Position numbers and translations under genes: made by a program
The notes under the pieces: generated by a model
The model's database searches: none
Seen by the model: only the letters and a program-made list of their open reading frames with translations
What the model was told of the DNA's origin: nothing
From: Myxococcales bacterium
GTDB lineage: Bacteria > Myxococcota_A > UBA796 > GCA-2862545
Length of the DNA stretch: 64,000 nucleotides
NCBI GenBank assembly: GCA_019634415.1
Contig: JAHQVJ010000221.1
Span: 49,989-113,988, forward strand
Direction: 5' to 3'
Shown here: positions 100 to 17,723 of the stretch, piece after piece
How the letters are laid out: each line of letters starts with the position of its first letter
Position numbering within the stretch: the first letter of the stretch is position 1

Positions 100-1344
100 A
101 TGGAGCAGGTGGTACCCGGTGCGCGGATCTGCTGTCTGGACCTCGACACGTTCTTCGTGTCGGTGGAGCGGCTCCTGGATCCCGAGCTGGTGGGCAAGCC
201 CGTGGTCGTGGGCGCTTCACCGGGCAAGCGCGGCGTCGTGACCGCGGCGAGCTACGAGGTGCGCGCCTTCGGCGTGCGCTCCGGCATGCCCATCTCCGAG
301 GCCGTGAGACTCGCGCCCGACGCCGTGTTCCTGCCCTGTCGCCACGGTGTGTACGGGCCCTACGCCGCAGAGGTTCGCGAGATCCTCGAGCGCTACACGC
401 CGAGCGTGCAGACCGCCAGCATCGACGAGTTCTTCCTGGACTTCCGTGGCTGCGAGCGACTGTGGAGGCGTCGCGAGGATCCCACCGACGAAGCCACCAT
501 CGAGCGAGTGGTGCGGCAGATGCGCCAGACCATCCACGACGAGGTGGGCCTGCCAGCAAGCGCGGGGATCGGCAGCACCCGCTCCATCGCCAAGATCGCG
601 TCTGGCAAGGCCAAGCCTGCGGGCGTCCACCTGGTGCCCGCGGGTGCGGAGCAGGCGTTCGTGCGCCCCCTGCCCGTCCGAGCGTTCCCCGGCATCGGTC
701 CCGCCACCGAGGCACGCCTGCACGCACGTGGGATCCACACCGTTGGCGACCTGCTGGCGGTACCCCCAGGACCCCTGCGCGCGCGATTCGGAGGGCTGGC
801 CGCCTCGGTGACGCGCAGCATCGATCCCACCCGTCGCAGCCCGCTGGGCCGGGATCGGCCTGCCTTTCGCGAGCACGACGACCCTGGGCACGGCTCGGTG
901 GGCAGCATCTCCAACGAGCGCACCTTCCATGCCGACGTGTCGGACATCCAGCGCGTGCTCGATCAGCTGCGTTCCTTGGCGGAGCGCGTGAGCTGGCGAG
1001 CGCGGCAGCGTGGCGTGCTGGCGCGCACCGTCACCCTCAAGCTGCGCACCTCGGACTTCCACACCGTCACGCGGGGTCTGACCGCCCATGGCACCCACCA
1101 CGAGGCCGAGATCCACCGGCGGCTGCTCACCCTGCTGCCGAAGGCGTGGTCCCGAGAGCAGGCGGTGCGACTCATCGGAGTGGCGCTGTCCAACTTCGAT
1201 CAGCCGGGCAATCAGCTAGCACTCCCCCTCGCGGTGCGGCACCGTCCGAGCGTGGGAGGGGCCATCGACGCCGTGCGGGAGCGCTTCGGCTACGACGCCA
1301 TTCGCCTCGGTGCCACGGGCTCCCCCACCCAGTGGATCGCGTGA
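100..1344 (+). CDS. dinB: Y-family translesion DNA polymerase IV
   Basis: This 414-residue protein is a Y-family polymerase that copies past damaged template bases. The N-terminal catalytic motif LDLDTFFVSVE (residues 13-23) and the second acidic motif ASIDEFFLDF (about 106-115) hold the metal-binding Asp/Glu residues. A helix-hairpin-helix region with AFPGIGPATEARL (about 190-202) and a little-finger domain follow, and the length is normal for the family. The ATG at 100 has a gggagg ribosome binding site 5-10 bases upstream. A LexA-like box lies just before it, so SOS induction is likely. It converges with the DUF1615 gene, leaving only five bases between the stops. A mutagenesis-associated Y-family relative such as ImuB is excluded by the intact catalytic residues. 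Confidence 0.92.
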   Translation: MEQVVPGARICCLDLDTFFVSVERLLDPELVGKPVVVGASPGKRGVVTAASYEVRAFGVRSGMPISEAVRLAPDAVFLPCRHGVYGPYAAEVREILERYTPSVQTASIDEFFLDFRGCERLWRRREDPTDEATIERVVRQMRQTIHDEVGLPASAGIGSTRSIAKIASGKAKPAGVHLVPAGAEQAFVRPLPVRAFPGIGPATEARLHARGIHTVGDLLAVPPGPLRARFGGLAASVTRSIDPTRRSPLGRDRPAFREHDDPGHGSVGSISNERTFHADVSDIQRVLDQLRSLAERVSWRARQRGVLARTVTLKLRTSDFHTVTRGLTAHGTHHEAEIHRRLLTLLPKAWSREQAVRLIGVALSNFDQPGNQLALPLAVRHRPSVGGAIDAVRERFGYDAIRLGATGSPTQWIA

Positions 1345-1349
1345 GGCGC

Positions 1350-2459
1350 CTAGCTTCGCTCGAGGCAGGCCTTGAAGCGGTGCTCCACGTTCTCGGCGAA
1401 CCAGGCGGTGGTCCGGTCTCGCGACAGCTTCGGGCTGTCGAGGCTCACCACCGGCAGCCGAGCATAGGCGGGATCCTTGCCCGTTCGCTCCTTGTAGGTG
1501 GCGCGGACGGCCTCCCAGGTGCGCGTCTGCTCGAAGGCCGCCGTCTTCTCCTTGCCCACGTCGCGCCGGATCTGGCGCTCCGACAGGTCTCCGCCGTACA
1601 TGGCGCGCCAGGCCATCAGCGCTCCCATGGTCTCTCCATCCTTGGGGCGCCCCCCGTCCTTGGGGTAGGCCAGCAGGTCGCCGTCGAGCGCGAGCTCGAG
1701 CTCCATGATGGCCGCCAGCTGCTCCTGGAAGGCGGCGTTGCGCGACGCATAGAAGCCCGCATTGAAGTCCGCGAACCGGTAGGCCGGCCGGTCGTAGTCC
1801 GCCTCGTGAGCGAACAGGCGAGCCGTTCCCCAGCGCAGTCCGCCCGCGCGCGTGTAGAGCAGATCGCGCACCGTCTTGCGCGGCACACCCGCGTCCGACG
1901 CAGCCTCTTGCGCCCAGGACACCGACACCTGCATCGAGCCCGCCGTCTTCACGGGATTGAGCTGGTCGAATTGGCGCATCAGCAGATCACCCGCGAGCGG
2001 GATGTCCGCTGCTCCGCCCGTGTAGTGCTCCGCCAGATCCCGAAACAGCTCGTCGAGCTGACGCTCCGTGCGCACCTTGGCCAGCCGCGCGTCGAAGGAC
2101 TCGGACGCGCCCTCGGCCACCGGCTTGAGCAACCAATCCACGCCGTGCTTCGACAGGGGGCCGAGCAGCTTCAGCCCCGCCTCGATCTCCCTGCGCGCGA
2201 TCTTGCCGAGCCCAGGCACCGCCGGATCCGCCTCGTAGGTGGACTCCTGCTCCACGACGGCGAGCACCGAGCAGACGCCCTGCTCGTCGACGCCAATCCC
2301 CGATGCTTGCAGCGCCGCCCGCAGATCCGTGGCCCAGCCCGCAGGATCGCTCGATTCCTTGCCGATGTAGGCCACAACTTGCTCGACGGCCATGCCAGGA
2401 TCAGGGGGCTCGTCGCCGAAGCAACCCGACAGCAAGAACAGGGCGACTCGACCGATCAT
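1350..2459 (-). CDS. DUF1615 family lipoprotein
   Basis: The protein matches the DUF1615 pattern as I recall it: VCSVLAVVEQESTYEADPAVPGL near the start and DYDRPAYRFADFNAGFYASRNAAFQ in the middle. Function is unknown. I use the ATG at 2459 rather than the track start, because GGGAGG lies five bases upstream and the product then begins with a short lipoprotein signal ending LLSGC, which would anchor it in the cell envelope. The E-S pair in QESTYEADP resembles the start of lysozyme-like transglycosylase folds, which is suggestive only. It is read alone on the minus strand, convergent with dinB. Confidence 0.8.
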   Translation of the reverse strand: MIGRVALFLLSGCFGDEPPDPGMAVEQVVAYIGKESSDPAGWATDLRAALQASGIGVDEQGVCSVLAVVEQESTYEADPAVPGLGKIARREIEAGLKLLGPLSKHGVDWLLKPVAEGASESFDARLAKVRTERQLDELFRDLAEHYTGGAADIPLAGDLLMRQFDQLNPVKTAGSMQVSVSWAQEAASDAGVPRKTVRDLLYTRAGGLRWGTARLFAHEADYDRPAYRFADFNAGFYASRNAAFQEQLAAIMELELALDGDLLAYPKDGGRPKDGETMGALMAWRAMYGGDLSERQIRRDVGKEKTAAFEQTRTWEAVRATYKERTGKDPAYARLPVVSLDSPKLSRDRTTAWFAENVEHRFKACLERS

Positions 2460-2547
2460 GGATCCTCCCGACACGGCGTGCGGACACCCAACGAAGGGCA
2501 TGGTGTCACGTGCCGTCGTGCCTTCACCTACGCAAGCGCGGCCCTGG

Positions 2548-2928
2548 TCATTCGTGACCCGGCTCGCGGTACGGCTTTCCGACAGTACCGCCGATGGCCA
2601 GGATCCGCGCGGATTCGCCCTCGGTCACCAGCTTTCGGGTCACCTCCGGTGCCACGCACACCATGTCACCTCTCGTAAGTCGGAGGATCTGTCCCTGCGC
2701 GTGGAGCGCCACTGAGCCCTCCAGCACCAGGTAGACCTCCTCCTGCCCGTCCCCCACATGGTCGTGCTCGGGGTAGCCCTGCACGCCCGGCTCCAGCTCC
2801 AGCACGTTCATGCCCCACGCCCGCACGCCCAAGGCCTGACGCACCGCGCGGAAGCGGATCCCGGGGATCTGGTTGGGCCCGACGTAGGGCTCCACGTCGT
2901 CGATGTGGACTCGTCTCACACCTGTCAT
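2548..2928 (-). CDS. Cupin-domain protein
   Basis: This is a small single-domain cupin of 126 residues. The metal-site pattern is visible as PEHDHVGDGQEEVYLVLEGS, with two His and a Glu, followed by the second cupin half (GDMVCVAPEVTRKLV). The track ORF is much longer, but the ATG at 2928 has GGAG seven bases upstream and starts the recognisable domain. It is divergent from the AraC-type regulator at 2953 with only 24 bases between them, so the two probably share a control region and the regulator may control the cupin gene. Substrate is unknown; small cupins of this type bind metal and may act as sensors, isomerases or dioxygenases. Confidence 0.82.
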   Translation of the reverse strand: MTGVRRVHIDDVEPYVGPNQIPGIRFRAVRQALGVRAWGMNVLELEPGVQGYPEHDHVGDGQEEVYLVLEGSVALHAQGQILRLTRGDMVCVAPEVTRKLVTEGESARILAIGGTVGKPYREPGHE

Positions 2929-2952
2929 GCTGATCTCCTGGTGAGGTGTCGC

Positions 2953-3789
2953 ATGTCTTCGAGTCGGCCGCCAGACCCGCCGGAGGAGCTTCCCTTCGAC
3001 GGCCGCGTGCGCGGCATGGTGTCCAACGCCTCGAGCGGCCAGCGCGTGCAGGCCCGCCTGTTCACCGCCCCCGACGATCTGGCTCTGTTGGTCTCCTACC
3101 TGTGGACGACGTCGTGGGACCTGCGGGGTCAAGCTCCCCATCGCTTCCAGATCTTGGGCGCACCCACCGCAGACGTGGTGTTCGAGCCAGCTGCGAGCCG
3201 AGTGGTGGGGGTTTGGACCCGCATGTGGGAGCGCACGCTTCAGGACCAGGGGTGCATGTGGGCGATCAAGCTCCGGCCCGGAGCGGGCCGCGCGGTGCTG
3301 CCCAGCAGCATGGCCACCTACACCGATCGCATCACCCCGCTGGCCGAGGTGTGGCCCAGTGCCGAAGACCCCACCGAGCGGCTGCTCGCCCACCCCGACG
3401 AGGCGCAGACCGCCTCGGCCCTCTCGGACTGGCTGCGAGGCGCGCTGCGGCCCCACGACGAGGAAAAGCGCACGCTGGCGACGGATCTGCTGCAGCGTGT
3501 GGAGGAAGACTCCGAGCTGCTGAGGGCGGAGCAGCTCGCACACACTGCAGGACTGGGGATCCGGGCGCTGCAGCGCCTGTTCTCGGCCTACGTGGGCGCG
3601 TCGCCGAAGTGGGTGATCCGGCGTCGCAGGCTGCAGGAGGCGGCCCAGCGCGTGGAAGCGGGCTCGGCCGAAGATCTGTCGGAGCTCGCCTTCGCCTTGG
3701 GCTACGCCGATCAAGCTCACCTCGCCCGAGACTTCAAGGCGGCGGTGGGCATGCCGCTGCGCGCCTTCGAGCAACACCTGCGGTCCTGA
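2953..3789 (+). CDS. AraC-family transcriptional regulator
   Basis: A 278-residue regulator with an N-terminal ligand-type domain and a C-terminal AraC helix-turn-helix pair. The second helix-turn-helix is clear in LSELAFALGYADQAHLARDFKAAVGMPLRAF (about residues 239-269); the first is around AGLGIRALQRLFSAYVGASPKWVIRRRRL. Start at ATG 2953 because the upstream part of the track ORF overlaps the divergent cupin gene. The N-terminal half resembles the DUF6597 domain often found in AraC regulators of Actinobacteria and Myxococcota. Head-to-head with the cupin gene; the natural guess is that it regulates that gene. Effector unknown. Confidence 0.85.
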   Translation: MSSSRPPDPPEELPFDGRVRGMVSNASSGQRVQARLFTAPDDLALLVSYLWTTSWDLRGQAPHRFQILGAPTADVVFEPAASRVVGVWTRMWERTLQDQGCMWAIKLRPGAGRAVLPSSMATYTDRITPLAEVWPSAEDPTERLLAHPDEAQTASALSDWLRGALRPHDEEKRTLATDLLQRVEEDSELLRAEQLAHTAGLGIRALQRLFSAYVGASPKWVIRRRRLQEAAQRVEAGSAEDLSELAFALGYADQAHLARDFKAAVGMPLRAFEQHLRS

Positions 3790-3870
3790 TCCGCTCCTCC
3801 CCGCATGGTCAAGAAGATGTGAAGCAGGCCCTGGTCAGCGGGCAAGCTCTAGGGCACGAGGAGTGTGACC

Positions 3871-4335
3871 ATGCTGTGGATCGGGATGATGACGGCACTC
3901 GCAGCCGACCTGGACGGCGATGCCATCGACGATGCCATCGACAACTGCATCGAGGTGGCGAACGTCGATCAGGAGGACTTCGACGAGGACGGTGTGGGCG
4001 ATGCCTGCGACAACTGCCCCGACTGGGAGAACGCCGCCCAAGACGACAGGGACGCCGACGGCTTCGGTGATCGCTGCGACCTGTGTCTGTTCATGGCCAC
4101 CGACACCAACGCGGACTCGGACGACGACGGCCTAGGGGACAGCTGTGACAACTGCCCCTTCGCGCCGAACTTCGATCAAGCCGACGACGACGGCGACGGG
4201 ATCGGCAACGTCTGCGATCCGTCGCTGCTCCAGCGCTGCGAGGAGGGGTGCAGCACCGGGGCGACGGGCGCTGTGGGTCCCGTGCTCCTCCTAGCTGCCC
4301 TCCTCGCCACCCGCCGACGCCTCCGCCTCGCCTAG
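3871..4335 (+). CDS. Small secreted thrombospondin type-3 repeat protein
   Basis: A secreted protein of 154 residues made mainly of calcium-binding thrombospondin type-3 repeats: DEDGVGDACDNCPDW, DADGFGDRCDLCL, DDDGLGDSCDNCPF and DDGDGIGNVCDP. The N-terminus is a short hydrophobic signal (MLWIGMMTALAA). The C-terminus (CSTG, a hydrophobic stretch, then RRRLR) looks like a MYXO-CTERM sorting tail, which in myxobacteria anchors proteins at the surface. ATG 3871 is preferred to GTG 3865 because GAGGAG is seven bases upstream. It converges with the DUF1501 gene. Probable surface calcium-binding protein; binding partner unknown. Confidence 0.75.
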   Translation: MLWIGMMTALAADLDGDAIDDAIDNCIEVANVDQEDFDEDGVGDACDNCPDWENAAQDDRDADGFGDRCDLCLFMATDTNADSDDDGLGDSCDNCPFAPNFDQADDDGDGIGNVCDPSLLQRCEEGCSTGATGAVGPVLLLAALLATRRRLRLA

Positions 4336-8912: not shown

Positions 8913-9704
8913 TCAACTAGACTCGTAGATCCGGCGGGTGTTGCGGCTCATGAAGCGCACGGCGGCTGCGCGGGGCAGCAAGCGCTGGAGCACGGCCGCG
9001 ACGGTGGCGTTGATCCAGCCGGGCACGGTGAGGGGGCGACGACCGAGGCGCTGCAGGGCCGTGCGCGCGACCACCTCGGGCGCCAGCGGCAAGGCCTGGG
9101 CCTGGCGATCAGCGGGGGTGGCTGCCTCGAAGTTCGGGGTGCGCACCGCTCCGGCCGCGCACACCACCACGTCGATCCCGAGCGGGCCGAGTTCCTCCCA
9201 CAGTCCCTCCCCCAGGATCTGGGTGAAGGCCTTCGTGGCGGCGTAGGTGGTCACCATGGCGGTGCCCTGCATGCCCGACAGCGACGACATGAGCACGATC
9301 CCACCCCGCCCACGCTCGCGCATGCCCTCGATCACCAAGGGCAACAGCAGCAGGGGTCCGCGACAGTTCACGTCGAGGGAGGCGAGCTTCGAGGCGGTGG
9401 AGGTCTCTGCGAAGGAGCCGATGGTGGAGGCGCAGGCGTTGTAGACGAACAGCCCCACCTCGCGCTCGGCGAGCACCGATGCGAGCCGCTCGTGCACGTC
9501 GGGGCGCCCGAGGTCGGCGGCCACGGTCAGCACCTGCACGCCGTGCTTCCGTCGCACACGGGCGGCGGCAGCCTCGAGGGGCTCGACGCGTCGGGCCACC
9601 ATCACCACGTTCAATCCCTCCTCGGCACACAGGTGGCAGAAGGCCGCACCGATCCCCTCCGAGGCTCCCGCGATCACGGCCCAGGGCCCGTAGCGTTTCC
9701 GCAC
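8913..9704 (-). CDS. Short-chain dehydrogenase/reductase
   Basis: An SDR oxidoreductase of 263 residues with the Rossmann nucleotide motif GASEGIG (about 12-18), NAC in place of the usual NAG, and the catalytic S and Y-x3-K (MSSLSG; YAATK near 153). The GTG at 9704 starts the domain in the expected place (RKRYGPWAVIAGASEGIG) and is only two bases after the TGA of the sterol reductase gene, so the pair are translationally coupled. A C-terminal hydrophobic stretch (INATVAAVLQRLLPRAAAVRF) may bind the membrane, as in 3-ketosteroid reductases and other lipid SDRs. Context suggests a keto-reduction step on the same lipid as the reductase; the substrate is inferred, not shown. Confidence 0.88.
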   Translation of the reverse strand: MRKRYGPWAVIAGASEGIGAAFCHLCAEEGLNVVMVARRVEPLEAAAARVRRKHGVQVLTVAADLGRPDVHERLASVLAEREVGLFVYNACASTIGSFAETSTASKLASLDVNCRGPLLLLPLVIEGMRERGRGGIVLMSSLSGMQGTAMVTTYAATKAFTQILGEGLWEELGPLGIDVVVCAAGAVRTPNFEAATPADRQAQALPLAPEVVARTALQRLGRRPLTVPGWINATVAAVLQRLLPRAAAVRFMSRNTRRIYESS

Positions 9705-9706
9705 GG

Positions 9707-10777
9707 TCAGTAGATCCCCGGCACGATCCGAGACGGTACCTTGCGTACGTACTCCTCCCACAGAGGGCCGTATTTCTCGGCACAGCGAGCATCGTCGTCG
9801 CGCTGGCGAGGCACGAGCAGCAGCACGTAGTACAGCGGATACAGCCAGGGCCAGGGCAGCGCCCACCACCCCGCCGAGGCGGCGATGGCGAGCCCCATGG
9901 TGATCTCCCCGAGGTAGTTGACGTGGCGCGACACGCCCCAGAAGCCGTTCACGAGCAGGCTCCTGTCGCCATCCGTGACGACCTGGGGCGCGATCCCAAG
10001 GAAGGGCTCGGACGGGCGCGTCTTGAAGCGGAACTTCTGCATGTTGGCGCCGCGGGCCATGGACCAGCCAGCGAGGAACAGAACCCCGATCCCGACGAGC
10101 ACGGGGAGCGGCGTGTGGGGATTCGGCAGGTCCGCGGTGAACCACAGGGCGATGGTGTAGAAGTAGGGGTAGAAGACGAGGCAGCCCCAGCCGAGCTTGA
10201 AGCCCACTCGCTCGGCGAACAGATCGTAGGTGTACAGGTGCACCCTTTCGAACACGAGATAGTCGTTGACGAAATAGGTCAGCAACCCCGCACAGAGCAC
10301 GATCCCGGGGGATGGGTCAGAGGAGTGGGTCAACGCGTGGTGAGCGGCAAAGCTCAGCACGTTGAGCTGCAAGATCACGGCCCCCACCAGGTACAGCCAC
10401 ATCTTGTGATCGAGCCGACCGCCGAGCAGCTGGGGGTTGATGCGGCGCCCGAGGAACAGGTCGATGGCGAGGCCGCGGCCGGTGGCGCGGGCGGGCAGCA
10501 CCATCGCAGCGGTGTAGAGCAGGCCGAGCACGCAGGCGCCGACGAGACCCTCGACGCGATGCACGAACAGCCAGCTCCACGGCACCCAGTCGAGCCAGCC
10601 GGCCAGCGCCCAGGCGGCGACGAGGGTAGCGTTGACCCTCAGGCCGTTGAGTCGGTAGCGCAGGGGCTCGCCGGTGCGCTCGTGGGGGACGTAGCCGGTG
10701 ATCCATCGGCCGGGCAGCGTCAGGTGCAGCCCGGTGATGACGAGGACGAGGAGCCAGGGCGCGAAGAAGCCGAGCAT
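9707..10777 (-). CDS. Sterol reductase, ERG4/ERG24 (delta-14/delta-24 type) family
   Basis: A 356-residue polytopic membrane protein with about eight to ten hydrophobic segments. The C-terminal half carries the family signatures: SRHVNYLGEI (compare RHPNYLGD) and RDDDARCAEKYGPLWEEY followed by KVPSRIVPGIY, which is close to the conserved end of delta-14-sterol reductase, DHCR7 and ERG4. These enzymes reduce double bonds in the sterol nucleus or side chain using NADPH. Which bond this one reduces cannot be told from sequence alone. It is the first gene of a two-gene operon with an SDR and is divergent from the comB-like gene (35-base gap). Bacterial homologues are rare outside sterol-making myxobacteria and a few intracellular bacteria, so possible sterol synthesis or host-sterol modification should be considered. 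Confidence 0.85.
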   Translation of the reverse strand: MLGFFAPWLLVLVITGLHLTLPGRWITGYVPHERTGEPLRYRLNGLRVNATLVAAWALAGWLDWVPWSWLFVHRVEGLVGACVLGLLYTAAMVLPARATGRGLAIDLFLGRRINPQLLGGRLDHKMWLYLVGAVILQLNVLSFAAHHALTHSSDPSPGIVLCAGLLTYFVNDYLVFERVHLYTYDLFAERVGFKLGWGCLVFYPYFYTIALWFTADLPNPHTPLPVLVGIGVLFLAGWSMARGANMQKFRFKTRPSEPFLGIAPQVVTDGDRSLLVNGFWGVSRHVNYLGEITMGLAIAASAGWWALPWPWLYPLYYVLLLVPRQRDDDARCAEKYGPLWEEYVRKVPSRIVPGIY

Positions 10778-10812
10778 GGGCGGCAGCCTACCCGATCGAG
10801 CTAGAAGGCTGC

Positions 10813-11514
10813 ATGGCGACGGGCGCGACTGCAGCGGACCTGTCCCAGTCGGGAGCGCGGATCCGGGTGGGCTGGGGGCTCTACGGGCTGCGGGCGCTTG
10901 CGGCTGGCGTAGACGTGGCGGTGATCGTGGACGTGCTGTCCTTCACCACCTCGGTGGCGGTGGCGCGCGAGGCAGGGGCGGAGGTGGTGCCCTGGGATCC
11001 GGCCACGCCGGTACCCACGGCCGCCGAGGCCGGTGTGGACGTGGTGGCGGGCCCACGAGCGGCGGACGGTCCGTCGCTGTCGCCAGCGTCGTTGACGTCG
11101 CTGGCAGCAGGCACCCGGCTGCTGCTGCCCTCCCCCAACGGCTCGCGGTTGCTGGCGTGGGCGCAGCGCGAGGGGGTGCCAGCGCACACGGCGTGCCTGC
11201 GGGATCGCCAGGTGGTGGCCCAGGCCCTCGCCGACGCAGGCGCGATCGCGGTGATCGCGGCAGGCGAGCGGTGGCCAGGCGGCGACCGAGCGCGGTTCGC
11301 GCTGGAGGACTGGCTGGGGGCGGGCAGCGTGGTGGCGGCGCTGACGGGATCGCGGTCCCCGGAGGCGGTGGCGGCGGAGGCAGCCTTCGACGCGCATCGT
11401 GGCGATCTGCAGGGAGCGCTGCGCGCGACGGCATCGGGGCGGGAGCTCGACGCTCGCGGGTTCGCGCACGACGTGGTGCTGGCGGCGGAGCTGGATGCGA
11501 CGGGGCGCGTCTGA
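10813..11514 (+). CDS. comB: 2-phosphosulfolactate phosphatase (ComB) family protein
   Basis: A 233-residue member of the ComB family. Recognisable segments are VIVDVLSFTTSVAVA near residue 40, LPSPNGSRLL near 100, AVIAAGERWPGGDRARFALEDWLGAGSVV, and a C-terminal AFDAHRGDLQGALRATASGREL. In methanogens ComB converts 2-phosphosulfolactate to sulfolactate in coenzyme M synthesis, with a Mg-dependent mechanism. None of the other CoM genes is in the window, and such orphan homologues are scattered through bacteria, so the actual substrate may differ. It is divergent from the sterol reductase, with AGAAGG six bases before the ATG. Confidence 0.85.
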   Translation: MATGATAADLSQSGARIRVGWGLYGLRALAAGVDVAVIVDVLSFTTSVAVAREAGAEVVPWDPATPVPTAAEAGVDVVAGPRAADGPSLSPASLTSLAAGTRLLLPSPNGSRLLAWAQREGVPAHTACLRDRQVVAQALADAGAIAVIAAGERWPGGDRARFALEDWLGAGSVVAALTGSRSPEAVAAEAAFDAHRGDLQGALRATASGRELDARGFAHDVVLAAELDATGRV

Positions 11515-12446: not shown

Positions 12447-14052
12447 GTGTCTGTGGGCCCAAAGGACCCGTGAGAGTTCACGGGCCGAGGTGGCCCGAGT
12501 TCGTTGATCGGATTTGTGGGGAGGGTGCGTCTCGGCAGAACCGGAATTGGGACCTTGCGGCTTGACCGCGACCTGGAGTCTCGGGCTGGGCCCCCTCCCC
12601 ACGATCTCGAATTCCAACATGCGGCTTGGACCGCGCAATTTGGTAGGCCGAGACGGGGCGGGGCGTCCCAGGTCGCCGAGTCGCCACTCACCACGGAGGG
12701 GTCATGGAGCATCAGCTGTTTGCTGGGGTAGACGTCGCCAGCCGCAAGCTGGATGTGTGCGTCGTGGACACCAAGGGCAATCCCGTCTGTCGGGAGCTTC
12801 GAGTCGCCAACAGTCCGGAGGGCTTCGCTGAGTTGCAGGCGGTCCTCGCCACGCTCGGAGCACCGGTGCTCGTGGGTTGCGAGTCCACGAGTGCGTACCA
12901 TCGGCCGCTGCTGCGAGCGCTGGATGGCGTCGCCGATACGGTCGAGCTCAATCCGCTCGTCATCAAGCGCTTCACCCAGCTCCAGCTTCGCGGCTCGCGG
13001 TCGGATCGCACCGACGCAAACTCGATCGCGCAGTACCTGCGGACGTTTCGGCCTAAGCCATCGCCGGTCACCGAGACGAAGCGGCGGGATCTCACGATGG
13101 CCGTGCGCCTTCGCCGTCGGCGCGTCGAGGAGCGGACGGCCAACAAGAACGCCCTGCGGCGCTACCTGGGCGAGTTGCTGCCTGGGTTTCACAACCACTT
13201 CCGCCGCACAACGCCCCTTTGGCTGATCTCGCTGTTTGCTGCACATCCTTGCCCCGCAGAGCTGCTCGCGCTCACGCCGGCCGATCTGGCCACCGTCCGC
13301 ACCCCGGGCGGCCGTTCGATCCGCTCCTCCGAACTCGAGGAACTCCAGGGGTTCCTGCACAGCAGCTCCGTGGAGCCCTGGTCGCCGCTGCTCCGTGCCG
13401 CCGTCGGGCAGCTTCTCCAGGACGTGGTTCGGGCAGAGCAAGCGGTCCGAGAGCTCGAGAGCCTGCTGGAGGAGGAGACCCGAACCCTGCCCGAGTGTAC
13501 GCTGCTTCGAACCATTCCGGGGGTTGGCGCCTTGACTGCGGCCGTGGCGATTGCCGAGGTGGGCGACGTCCGACGGTTCCCGTCCGTGGACCACTTCATC
13601 GGCTACTGCGGCCTGTACGCCACCTCGAAGACCAGCGGCGACGGGAAGACGACCGGGCGCATGGTGCGCAAGGGCAACCGCATGCTCCGGCTGCAGCTGC
13701 TGCTCGCCTCCACGACAGCTCGCGACTAGACCCCGAGATGCGCCGGCGGGGCCGCGGCTCGCAAGCTGGCCACGCAGCTCTTCGCCATCCTCACCACCCA
13801 GCAGCCCTACGACCCAGCGAGGCCCTGAAGGCGCGAAAAGTGAGGGCGGGGCCGCAACAAAGTCGATGCCGACGGCGAACGCCAGCCGGTTCCGCAGTCT
13901 CCCGCCCTCGCCGGACATTCTAGCAGGGCCGTGCGCAGTGCTCATGGGAGCCTGCCCTGATCGACGTGCGCGTCGACCTCAGTGTGCACGCGACCGCCGT
14001 CCTTGACACGTGGCCTCATTCCAACTCCAGGGTGGCGTCTGTCATCCCTCGA
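12447..14052 (+). mobile_element. Decayed IS110-family insertion, approximate extent
   Basis: The span holds an IS110-type transposase pseudogene and the two non-coding flanks of about 257 and 224 bases. Elements of this family lack terminal inverted repeats, so the ends cannot be fixed by eye; the coordinates are simply the gap between the neighbouring genes. In the left flank there is a perfect seven-base stem with a GAGT loop (12467-12484) overlapping a second stem CGGGCC/GGCCCG (12481-12497). Related 11-12 base strings (agggtgcgtct at 12522 and agggtggcgtct at 14029) occur on the two sides in the same orientation. Functional IS110 elements make a structured bridge RNA from a non-coding end, so either flank may hold its remnant. 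Confidence 0.55.
12704..13828 (+). pseudogene. IS110-family DEDD transposase, 3' end broken
   Basis: The reading frame opens with GGAGGGG six bases before ATG 12704 and shows the RuvC-like DEDD domain (FAGVDVASRKLDV, VGCESTSAYH, SDRTDANSIAQYL) and the C-terminal Tnp domain with the serine region (LLRTIPGVGALTAAVAIAEVGD, HFIGYCGLYATSKTSGDG). At 13727 an in-frame TAG interrupts it. Reading on in the same frame gives ARKLATQLFAILTTQQPYDPARP and TGA at 13828, the normal family ending, while LDPEMRR, normally between, is found in another frame. So a frameshift plus a deletion of roughly 20-30 codons seems to have removed the link. The 341-residue remainder probably does not transpose. Confidence 0.85.
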
Positions 14053-15512: not shown

Positions 15513-16367
15513 TCATGGCGCGAACCCCGCGGGTGGAGCGCTCCAATCTTCCGTGTGGTCGGCGCACCACTCCCACACGTTGCCGAGCATGTCGTACAGG
15601 CCCCATGGGTTGGGAGCCTTGGTCGCAACGAGCATCGTGGAGTCGACGCCAAACCAGGCCACGTCTTCGAGCTGGCCGTATCGAGCTTCGGTGGTGCCCG
15701 CACGGCAGGCGTATTCCCACTCGGCCTCTGTCGGCAGACGCCATGTCAGGCCGTCCGGCAGCCGCTCGAGGAACCCTTGGCAGTCGTCCCACGAGACCTG
15801 CTCCACCGGACGGCTCGGCCAGTCCTCGCCGTTCCGGAAGTGGCTCGGGTTCGCCCCCATCACATCGAGCCACTGCGCCTGGGTCACCGGCGTCTCTCCG
15901 AGCCAGAAGCCGCGCGAGATCCGCACGGGGTGCTGTGGCTCGTTCCCCTCGCGTTCCTCTTCGTCTTCGGGAGCGCCCATCAGGAACTCGCCAGCAGGGA
16001 TCCACCGAAGGCGGAACCCCGCCACCTCGGCGCACAAGCCGTGTTGATCCAGCGTCAGGCGTTCCGCCCACCCCACGCCAAAGCGCCTGAGCAACGCGTC
16101 CCCTGCCCGTTGCTCCCGCAGCGCATCCATCAGGATGCCCACGTCGTCTTGGTCCAACAATCCCGCCTTCCTCGGCGCGTCCCGCGCCTCGTCCCCGGCG
16201 GGATGGCTTTCAGCTCCACCTGCGGCCAAGCGAAAGCCCAGGCTCTCGACGCGGTTGCCAGGGTGAGAGGCGAGGCGACAGGCAGCGCGCACGAGGCGCG
16301 CCTGGCCGAACCAGCCGCCTCCACGGATCACACGCTCCGGGCCTGCGGTTCCAACCGGGTCGATCAT
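15513..16367 (-). CDS. FGE/SUMF1-type C-type-lectin-fold protein with swapped halves
   Basis: The 284-residue product has a formylglycine-generating-enzyme (FGE-sulfatase) domain in an odd order. The normal N-terminal and middle part is at the C-terminus: FRLRWIPAGEFLMGAPEDEEER, LGETPVTQAQWLDVM, WRLPTEAEWEYACRAGT, GLYDMLGNVWEWCADH, then it stops. The normal C-terminal part, RVIRGGGWFGQARLVRAACRLASHPGNRVESLGFRLA, is at the N-terminus right after the ATG. The linker between is charged and of unknown type. The ATG at 16367 overlaps the TGA of the preceding fragment. Either it is a genuine circular permutant or a rearranged remnant of tandem FGE genes next to selC. Catalytic activity is doubtful; many such domains are non-catalytic ligand-binding folds. 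Confidence 0.6.
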   Translation of the reverse strand: MIDPVGTAGPERVIRGGGWFGQARLVRAACRLASHPGNRVESLGFRLAAGGAESHPAGDEARDAPRKAGLLDQDDVGILMDALREQRAGDALLRRFGVGWAERLTLDQHGLCAEVAGFRLRWIPAGEFLMGAPEDEEEREGNEPQHPVRISRGFWLGETPVTQAQWLDVMGANPSHFRNGEDWPSRPVEQVSWDDCQGFLERLPDGLTWRLPTEAEWEYACRAGTTEARYGQLEDVAWFGVDSTMLVATKAPNPWGLYDMLGNVWEWCADHTEDWSAPPAGFAP

Positions 16368-16600
16368 GCGCCACCTCGCACGGCAAGTAGCGCTCTCGCC
16401 GCGGCCTCGGCGAGAGTGGTGCCTTCCGCCGACCAGCCCGAACCCCAGATCAGGAACCGAGCACCCAGCAAGCCCAGGCCCTCCCGCCGGACGCACCAGT
16501 CACCGGGCAGCAACCCCAGCAGCACGCCGCCGTGGGTGAACCGCCCCCGGTAGTCGACGTGGCAGAAGAGCGCGTTCAGCTCCGGGGCGTGCTCGTAGTC
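16364..16600 (-). pseudogene. 3' fragment of an unrecognised gene
   Basis: An open frame of 78 codons without a credible start codon runs from just after a TAG (16601-16603) to a TGA that overlaps the ATG of the FGE-like gene (GCATGA). The translation contains LNALFCHVDYRGRFTHGG, LLPGDWCVRREGLGLL and LIWGSGWSAEGTTLAEAAARALLA, with coding-like composition. I do not recognise it. It ends 17 bases from the 3' end of the MYXO-CTERM gene on the same strand, so its 5' part was probably lost at a junction around 16600-16617. Confidence 0.45.
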
Positions 16601-16616
16601 CTACGACGGCGAGCCA

Positions 16617-17723
16617 CTACCGCCGCCGCACGAACAGCAACGCGACCAATGCGATGCCCGCTGGCAGCGCCGGCGCAGGAGCATGGGAGCAGCCTCCACT
16701 GGTGACGTCGTCACAGGCGTCGCCGAAACCGTCCTCGTCTACGTCTGCCTGGCTGGAGTTGCCGGTGAACGGGCAGTTGTCTTCCCCGTTGGGCACACCA
16801 TCGTTGTCGACGTCGGTGCCATCGGTGGTGTCGCAGGCGTCCCCGAACCCATCGGCGTCGGAATCCTCCTGCATCGGATTGTCTTGGAACGGGCAGTTGT
16901 CCGACCCGTTCTCCAGGCCGTCACCGTCTACGTCGAGACCGTTGCTCGGGTCGCACACGTCGCCGAGCCCGTCGCCATCTCGGTCCTCTTGGTCCGGATT
17001 CCGATCTTCGGGACAGTTGTCGACGAGATCCGCCACACCATCCAGATCGAAGTCGGGGTCGGTGATCTCACACGTCGACGAGCACGTGTCCCCGTTGGTG
17101 AGGTTGCCGTCGTCGCACTCCTCGTGGACAGTCCGTGCCCCGTTGCCACAGCGATCGCTGCCGAGGGTCAGGGACCCGATGGCAAAGAACCCTTCCGTTG
17201 TGGCTTCGCCATCGAAGAGCCCGATGTGGATGCGCTCGATGAACTCGGGCGCCGTGACCCCCCAGAACCCCGAGGCCGGCAGCAGGTGGTTAGACGACGA
17301 GCCATCACCGTAGAAGACGCGTGCGTAGTAGGCGGGTGGACCCTCGTTGACAGAGACCTCGATGCCCACGCCGAAGACCCCGAGCCCGTCTGGCTCCGTC
17401 ACGCTTGACGTGCGAAAGGACAGCTCGAAGGATCCGTTACAACCAGCGCAGTAGGAGAGGTCCCCCTTCACGTCAGTCACGAAATTGAGATTGTCGAAGC
17501 CGGTGGTCTGGTAGTCCGTCTCTCCGAGCACCGCGCTCATCGTCGCGTCGTCTTGAAGCAAGTCGTAGCCGGGATCGCTGTAGTCATCGACCACCGTAGT
17601 CCCGAGCAGTCCCTCGAAGTCGAGCGCATCCTCATGGAGCGTCTGGGTGCTCGCGTGGGCCAGAGGACTGCCTAGGGCGAACACGACGGCCCACAGGTTG
17701 GATGTGGCAACGATGGGGCGCAT
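16617..17723 (-). CDS. Secreted TSP3-repeat protein with MYXO-CTERM-like tail
   Basis: A 368-residue secreted protein. Signal peptide MRPIVATSNLWAVVFALGSPLAHA; an N-terminal beta-rich domain of about 160 residues with a CAGC pair; a DUF4215-type Cys-rich motif CGNGARTVHEECDDGNLTNGD (about 193-213); then thrombospondin type-3 calcium repeats (DFDLDGVADLVDNCPE, DRDGDGLGDVCDP, DSDADGFGDACDT, DVDEDGFGDACDD); and a C-terminal CSHAP-hydrophobic-FVRRR MYXO-CTERM-like sorting tail. It should be exposed and anchored at the outer surface. ATG 17723 has GGAG six bases upstream. Its neighbour is the copper-monooxygenase-like lipoprotein gene, same strand, 56 bases away. Confidence 0.85.
   Translation of the reverse strand: MRPIVATSNLWAVVFALGSPLAHASTQTLHEDALDFEGLLGTTVVDDYSDPGYDLLQDDATMSAVLGETDYQTTGFDNLNFVTDVKGDLSYCAGCNGSFELSFRTSSVTEPDGLGVFGVGIEVSVNEGPPAYYARVFYGDGSSSNHLLPASGFWGVTAPEFIERIHIGLFDGEATTEGFFAIGSLTLGSDRCGNGARTVHEECDDGNLTNGDTCSSTCEITDPDFDLDGVADLVDNCPEDRNPDQEDRDGDGLGDVCDPSNGLDVDGDGLENGSDNCPFQDNPMQEDSDADGFGDACDTTDGTDVDNDGVPNGEDNCPFTGNSSQADVDEDGFGDACDDVTSGGCSHAPAPALPAGIALVALLFVRRR

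Follow-up and report, generated by a model that had tools for sequence, protein, structure and literature searches.

An ERG4/ERG24-family membrane reductase and an adjoining short-chain dehydrogenase in a Myxococcota genome: a reductase clade without the usual catalytic tyrosine

The reductase and dehydrogenase genes

The window, i.e. the whole 64,000-nucleotide stretch of a Myxococcales metagenome-assembled genome (MAG) that was analysed, carries on its minus strand a gene for an ERG4/ERG24-family reductase and, directly behind it, a gene for a short-chain dehydrogenase/reductase (SDR) (Table 1).

Table 1. Features of the reductase-SDR locus (window positions).
Feature	Position	Strand	Basis
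ERG4/ERG24-family integral membrane reductase, 356 aa; first gene of the pair	9707..10777	minus	PF01222, 4quv, AlphaFold
Classical SDR, 263 aa, GTG start	8913..9704	minus	PF00106; 5fyd nearest; invariant residues
Junction: TGA (9709-9707), CC, then the SDR GTG; no overlap	9705..9709	minus	direct sequence reading
Divergent gap, 35 nt, from the reductase start to a 2-phosphosulfolactate phosphatase-like gene	10778..10812	.	frames and Pfam

The reductase frame (10777-9707, minus strand) is complete from ATG to TGA. A profile search matched its product to PF01222 with 180.4 bits against a curated cut-off of 27 (E 6.9e-53), and by sequence it matched the delta-14-sterol reductase structure 4quv (MaSR1) with an E value of 2.3e-39. 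The structure predicted by AlphaFold from an alignment of 30 relatives had a pLDDT of 88.8 and a pTM of 0.90, and a fold search with this model returned 4quv as the sole confident match (E 4.9e-17, TMq 0.82), no other structure falling under E 1. The N-terminus is ca. 72 residues shorter than that of MaSR1, and the C-terminal motifs (W280, R284 H285, N287 Y288, R324, D328, K335 Y336, and Y343) are all present. These results bear out the first-pass annotation, made from the sequence alone, which had described an ERG4/ERG24-family reductase with intact C-terminal motifs. The protein does not belong among isoprenylcysteine methyltransferase-like proteins, a placement that the annotation had named as one that would refute it: the Pfam profile search gave no such match, and the fold match was to 4quv. 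A Pfam DUF1295 match (27.8 bits versus 180 for PF01222) was rejected as a sign of an unrelated family because MaSR1 scores alike (27.6 bits).

The SDR matched PF00106 with an E value of 2e-34 in a profile search, and its catalytic tetrad N113/S140/Y154/K158 is complete; the SDR of the first-pass annotation is thus indeed there. The tetrad is invariant among the homologues, as are G13-S15-G17-G19 and Arg38, and the latter residue suggests NADP(H) as the likely cofactor. By sequence and by fold, the nearest solved relative is the 7beta-hydroxysteroid dehydrogenase (7beta-HSDH; 5fyd/5gt9) 5fyd, with which the SDR shares the KYG.W N-terminus and the classical SDR type. However, the identity over the fold alignment is 28-30%, from which the specificity of the SDR cannot be read, and the score against the NCBIfam 7beta-HSDH equivalog NF050024 was 111 bits, below the curated cut-off of 300. 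Further matches of the SDR were to models of 17beta-HSD13 and mycolate reductase.

The two genes had been annotated as overlapping in translation. The SDR frame on the minus strand stays open from 10145, and this long upstream opening is due to DNA of ca. 70% G+C (the window has 69% G+C and long spurious frames throughout). Homologues of the SDR start a few residues ahead of KYGPWAV, which fits the GTG at 9704, 2 nt past the reductase stop. Overlapping translation in the window was therefore ruled out, the extended SDR frame being a high-GC artefact. A membrane-like tail of the SDR, claimed likewise, did not hold up: the Kyte-Doolittle value peaks at 1.15 over 19 residues, which is under the transmembrane level and too weakly hydrophobic for a membrane span, and the predicted structure of the tail consists of two short helices of low confidence.

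On the other side of the reductase, the 2-phosphosulfolactate phosphatase-like gene (10813-11514, plus strand) diverges, so that on this side the operon comprises two genes at most; no sigma-70-like site was found in the 35-nt gap. An IS110-family transposase gene lies at 12704-13729 (plus strand), 1.9 kb from the reductase start. Elsewhere in the window, a sulfatase-modifying-factor (FGE) domain protein is encoded at 15513-16496 (minus strand) and thrombospondin type 3 repeat proteins at 3865-4335 (plus strand, by Pfam) and 16617-17723 (minus strand, by eye), both of the latter with a hydrophobic Arg-rich end resembling a MYXO-CTERM anchor.

Active-site residues and place in the family

Residues were compared in MaSR1 numbering in an alignment of 55 sequences, 30 from the clade of the window reductase (query clade) and 25 others, and the positions tied to NADPH or catalysis were taken from PMC12489058 and PMC4951196. 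N316, K319, W352, H357, N359, Y360, R395, D399, K406, and Y414 were conserved in all 30 query-clade sequences, across which the mean column identity was 65%. Two of these, N359 and R395, are NADPH-binding residues and disease sites in LBR (PMC4951196), and their equivalents in the window reductase are N287 and R324. At R323 the query clade has Lys, at F312 Ala, Ser, or Thr, and at F388 Tyr; the NADPH site is thus kept mostly, not wholly. Tyr241 and Asp363 are the predicted catalytic residues of MaSR1 (PMC12489058). Position 241 is Phe in 30/30 query-clade sequences as against Tyr in 25/25 sequences of the other clades, and Asp363 is replaced by Glu, which alone is not unusual because two other clades have it too. 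The window reductase has F169 and E291 at these positions, and the predicted delta-14 catalytic pair is not matched. Furthermore, pocket positions 201, 206, and 275 in the query clade are unlike those of every sterol-associated clade, differences that would fit a non-sterol substrate equally well.

In an unrooted tree, from which fungal ERG4 and animal and plant DHCR7 were absent, the 30 query-clade sequences lay on one side of a long branch (1.39) with a support of 100/100. The support of the other groups was 96/94 for the C14 type including MaSR1, 100/100 for the DHCR7-like type, and 100/99 for group IV, which contains a Planktothrix plasmid protein. As the sequences had been grouped with their residues in view, the tree serves to check this grouping; group III is the one that, from plant-enzyme motifs, we take to be DHCR7-like. 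The 100/100 branch separates the window reductase from the C14 clade, and the protein also falls outside the DHCR7-like clade, with which it shares 25-29% identity and whose HFHY..E motif it lacks. A placement relative to delta-14, delta-7, and delta-24 enzymes had been proposed in the first-pass annotation; what stands is membership of the ERG4/ERG24 family in a clade of its own, and what does not is a place among the delta-14 or DHCR7-like enzymes. The protein should not be named a delta-14- or delta-7-sterol reductase.

With MaSR1 (4quv), ERG24, LBR, and TM7SF2, the query clade shares the fold (TMq 0.82), PF01222, and N316, K319, W352, H357, N359, Y360, R395, D399, and Y414. It differs from MaSR1 in that, besides the changes at Y241 and D363, W209 is Leu and L275 is Tyr, while the window reductase has the shorter N-terminus, belongs to a separate clade, and comes from a genome in which the sterol pathway genes were not found. 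The plant-type DHCR7 (delta-7) reductases of Legionella drancourtii, Protochlamydia, and Coxiella are likewise PF01222 proteins from bacteria to which no sterol synthesis is ascribed (PMC2667531; PMC5418226); in contrast, the query clade lacks the group III motifs HFHY..E and FFWWE, and these amoeba-associated reductases are not known to have an SDR partner. Coxiella, apparently not a cholesterol maker, has a delta-24 reductase able to complement yeast erg4 (PMC5418226), which offers a precedent for a reductase of this family acting on an acquired sterol. Group IV (Planktothrix agardhii p2; HKST-UBA33) is 31-34% identical and has Leu at W209 and Glu at D363 in common with the query clade, but it retains Tyr241 and has Lys at H357. 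Its Planktothrix gene sits in an apparent sterol gene cluster on plasmid p2 (L073, NZ_LR882940.1:36556-59122) with genes for squalene synthase, FAD oxidoreductases, a squalene-cyclase-repeat protein (cyclase), P450s, Rieske proteins, an SDR, the ERG4/24 reductase, an emopamil-binding protein, and a carbamoyltransferase. SRD5A2 is also a membrane NADPH-dependent steroid C=C reductase, acts on an enone, and has a core partly superposable on MaSR1 (PMC7591894); however, it is a 7-TM protein without a sequence match to the window reductase, and its E57/Y91 are not comparable by sequence. A bacterial sterol reductase of NTF2 fold (PMC13277303) belongs to a different family.

Pairing, distribution and sterol synthesis genes

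An SDR homologue adjoins the reductase in 21 of the 29 other query-clade loci; two loci end at a contig edge, and six are without an SDR. The gene order was SDR then reductase in all 20 other loci in which both genes were placeable, and in 19 of them the start of the second gene may overlap the stop of the first by 4 nt; the window pair alone among the placed loci has the reverse order. No wider conserved gene cluster was found in the 30 loci, no other neighbour family recurring across lineages, and no uptake or steroid-degradation genes were recognised near the pair. At one locus (L009), and there only, the pair has carotenoid-like neighbours, namely genes for a UbiA prenyltransferase and an FAD amine-oxidase-type desaturase. 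The distances among reductases and among SDRs correlated (r 0.80, 0/5000 permutations), although shared species history may add to r. The mean distance of the window SDR to the others was 2.1 versus 1.3 among the others, and the window reductase was at the usual distance. We read the reversed order and the diverged SDR of the window as a re-pairing with the SDR or as its rapid divergence. That the clade is tight and keeps an SDR partner in several phyla is more than chance, and the reductase and SDR very likely form one reductive pathway unit.

The query clade has members in Myxococcota, Alphaproteobacteria, Actinobacteria, and one Bacteroidota MAG. It was present in 16 of the 379 Myxococcota genomes sampled (window counted), in 6/96 genomes of the order of an alphaproteobacterial MAG, and in 2/396 genomes of one actinobacterial order, as well as in named MAGs of Actinobacteria, an Alphaproteobacterium, and an Aureispira. 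Within the class of the window, only the window genome carries a query-clade gene; DHCR7-like genes occur in eight other Myxococcota genomes of this class (L013, L021-L027), in none of which squalene epoxidase (SE) was detected. The scattered occurrence suggests horizontal transfer, and MAG binning errors could contribute. One plasmid homologue of the reductase was found (32% identity), and it belongs to a different clade. On a contig filed as viral (L095), a cut query-clade reductase and a phage tail tape-measure-like neighbour occupy 3-752 and 878-3541, which could reflect a chimeric contig or the border of a prophage. Another contig from a viral collection (L096:4649-5539) matched ERG4/ERG24 with 389 bits over 258 profile positions and is 30% identical to the query clade.

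The first-pass annotation had suggested a late reduction/keto-reduction step in sterol synthesis, to be checked by looking for SE and oxidosqualene cyclase (OSC). Profile searches of the window genome (MAG, 82% complete) detected no SE and, of the oxidosqualene/hopene cyclases, only a 28.7-bit fragment (L002), which was treated as a chance match, the longest ORF scanned there having no Pfam domain. Both genes were also missing in eight genomes with 54-64% identical reductases, the searches having covered nine of the 30 carrier genomes. The same searches were positive for SE and OSC in G002 and G019, both of the window's family, and in G066, which indicates that they work, while at 82% completeness the absence from the window genome alone is not proof. 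In the class survey, SE was found in 0/9 PF01222 carriers and a cyclase-family gene in one (G071), and both SE-bearing genomes were without a PF01222 gene. G066 (Myxococcales HKST-UBA33) encodes SE and a squalene/oxidosqualene cyclase in one 1163-residue frame, an apparent fusion (G066:C420:1188-4076; L020 with L019). As neither SE nor OSC was found in the window genome or in the eight genomes with close relatives, the data do not support a late step in sterol synthesis by the host itself; the logic of a reduction and a keto-reduction, and the coupling to the SDR, remain.

Possible substrates and their meaning

The locus combines a membrane protein, whose predicted structure has the sterol-reductase fold and which keeps most NADPH-site residues, with a neighbouring SDR whose tetrad is complete. 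Rather than completing a sterol made by the cell itself, the pair probably acts on a sterol-like lipid of outside origin or on a different lipid. We give a probability of ca. 0.4 to the reading that the substrate is an exogenous sterol or steroid-like lipid. On this reading, the two enzymes would make up a reductive module that is complete in itself and has spread horizontally. The substrate would be a polycyclic lipid resembling a sterol or steroid that the cell acquires from prey, algae, or detritus; the membrane enzyme would reduce one of its C=C bonds, and the SDR would use NADP(H) to reduce, or reversibly interconvert, a ketone on one of its rings. Given Phe in place of the usual acid Tyr, the most probable reaction would be hydride addition to a double bond polarised by an adjacent ketone (enone), after which the SDR would convert the ketone to an alcohol; the invariant pocket Tyr203 is a candidate substitute donor. 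We infer from the altered residues an enone substrate with Tyr203 as a stand-in. No literature linking sterol reductase, short-chain dehydrogenase, and cholestanol in bacteria was found.

The same two reductions on a non-sterol, non-steroid lipid, i.e. a carotenoid, another isoprenoid, or an acyl chain (the last modelled on fatty-acid elongation, with a 3-ketoacyl reductase and a membrane enoyl reductase), are almost as likely as those on an acquired sterol or steroid. The missing sterol pathway genes in nine genomes, the changed pocket beside mostly intact cofactor residues, the neighbours of the L009 pair, and the SDR matches to 17beta-HSD13 and mycolate-reductase models all point in this direction. 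However, the carotenoid-like neighbours occur at a single locus with no neighbour family recurring across lineages, the only structure matched confidently by fold is that of a sterol reductase, and the SDR matches a steroid-active enzyme best. It is highly improbable that the pair performs a late reduction in the home-made sterol synthesis of a sterol-producing myxobacterium: while PF01222 membership, the sterol makers among Myxococcota (PMC12004948), and an assembly from which SE and OSC could be missing would agree with this, the searches that recovered both genes in three genomes found neither here nor in the eight relatives, and the two SE-bearing genomes of the class survey have no PF01222 gene. 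The replacement of Tyr241 by Phe in the whole clade would also be expected if the protein had lost its acid residue and its reductase activity and were now lipid-binding or decaying, which we consider very unlikely, since NADPH-site and many other residues are invariant across phyla at a mean column identity of 65%, the GC3 of the gene (0.90) is similar to that of the genes around it, and the partner SDR is complete.

If the preferred reading, an acquired sterol or steroid-like substrate, is taken further, the clade would be a new class of membrane reductase with the sterol-reductase fold, its acid catalyst relocated or dispensed with, which together with a dedicated SDR would provide a mobile two-gene route for remodelling environmental sterols or oxysterols (enone, then ketone reduction) in several phyla that do not make sterols; in this full form the proposal is speculative and rather unlikely.

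ERG4/ERG24 homologues are readily taken as a sign of bacterial sterol synthesis. The query clade bears the family name without the usual catalytic Tyr, the sterol pathway was not found in the nine carrier genomes checked, and a steroid-dehydrogenase-like partner accompanies the reductase across phyla. If the pair acts on outside sterols, it would be a way of altering sterols, patchily distributed and so far unrecorded, that bears on sterol biomarkers; if it does not, the ERG4/ERG24 family would have a substrate that nobody has assigned to it.
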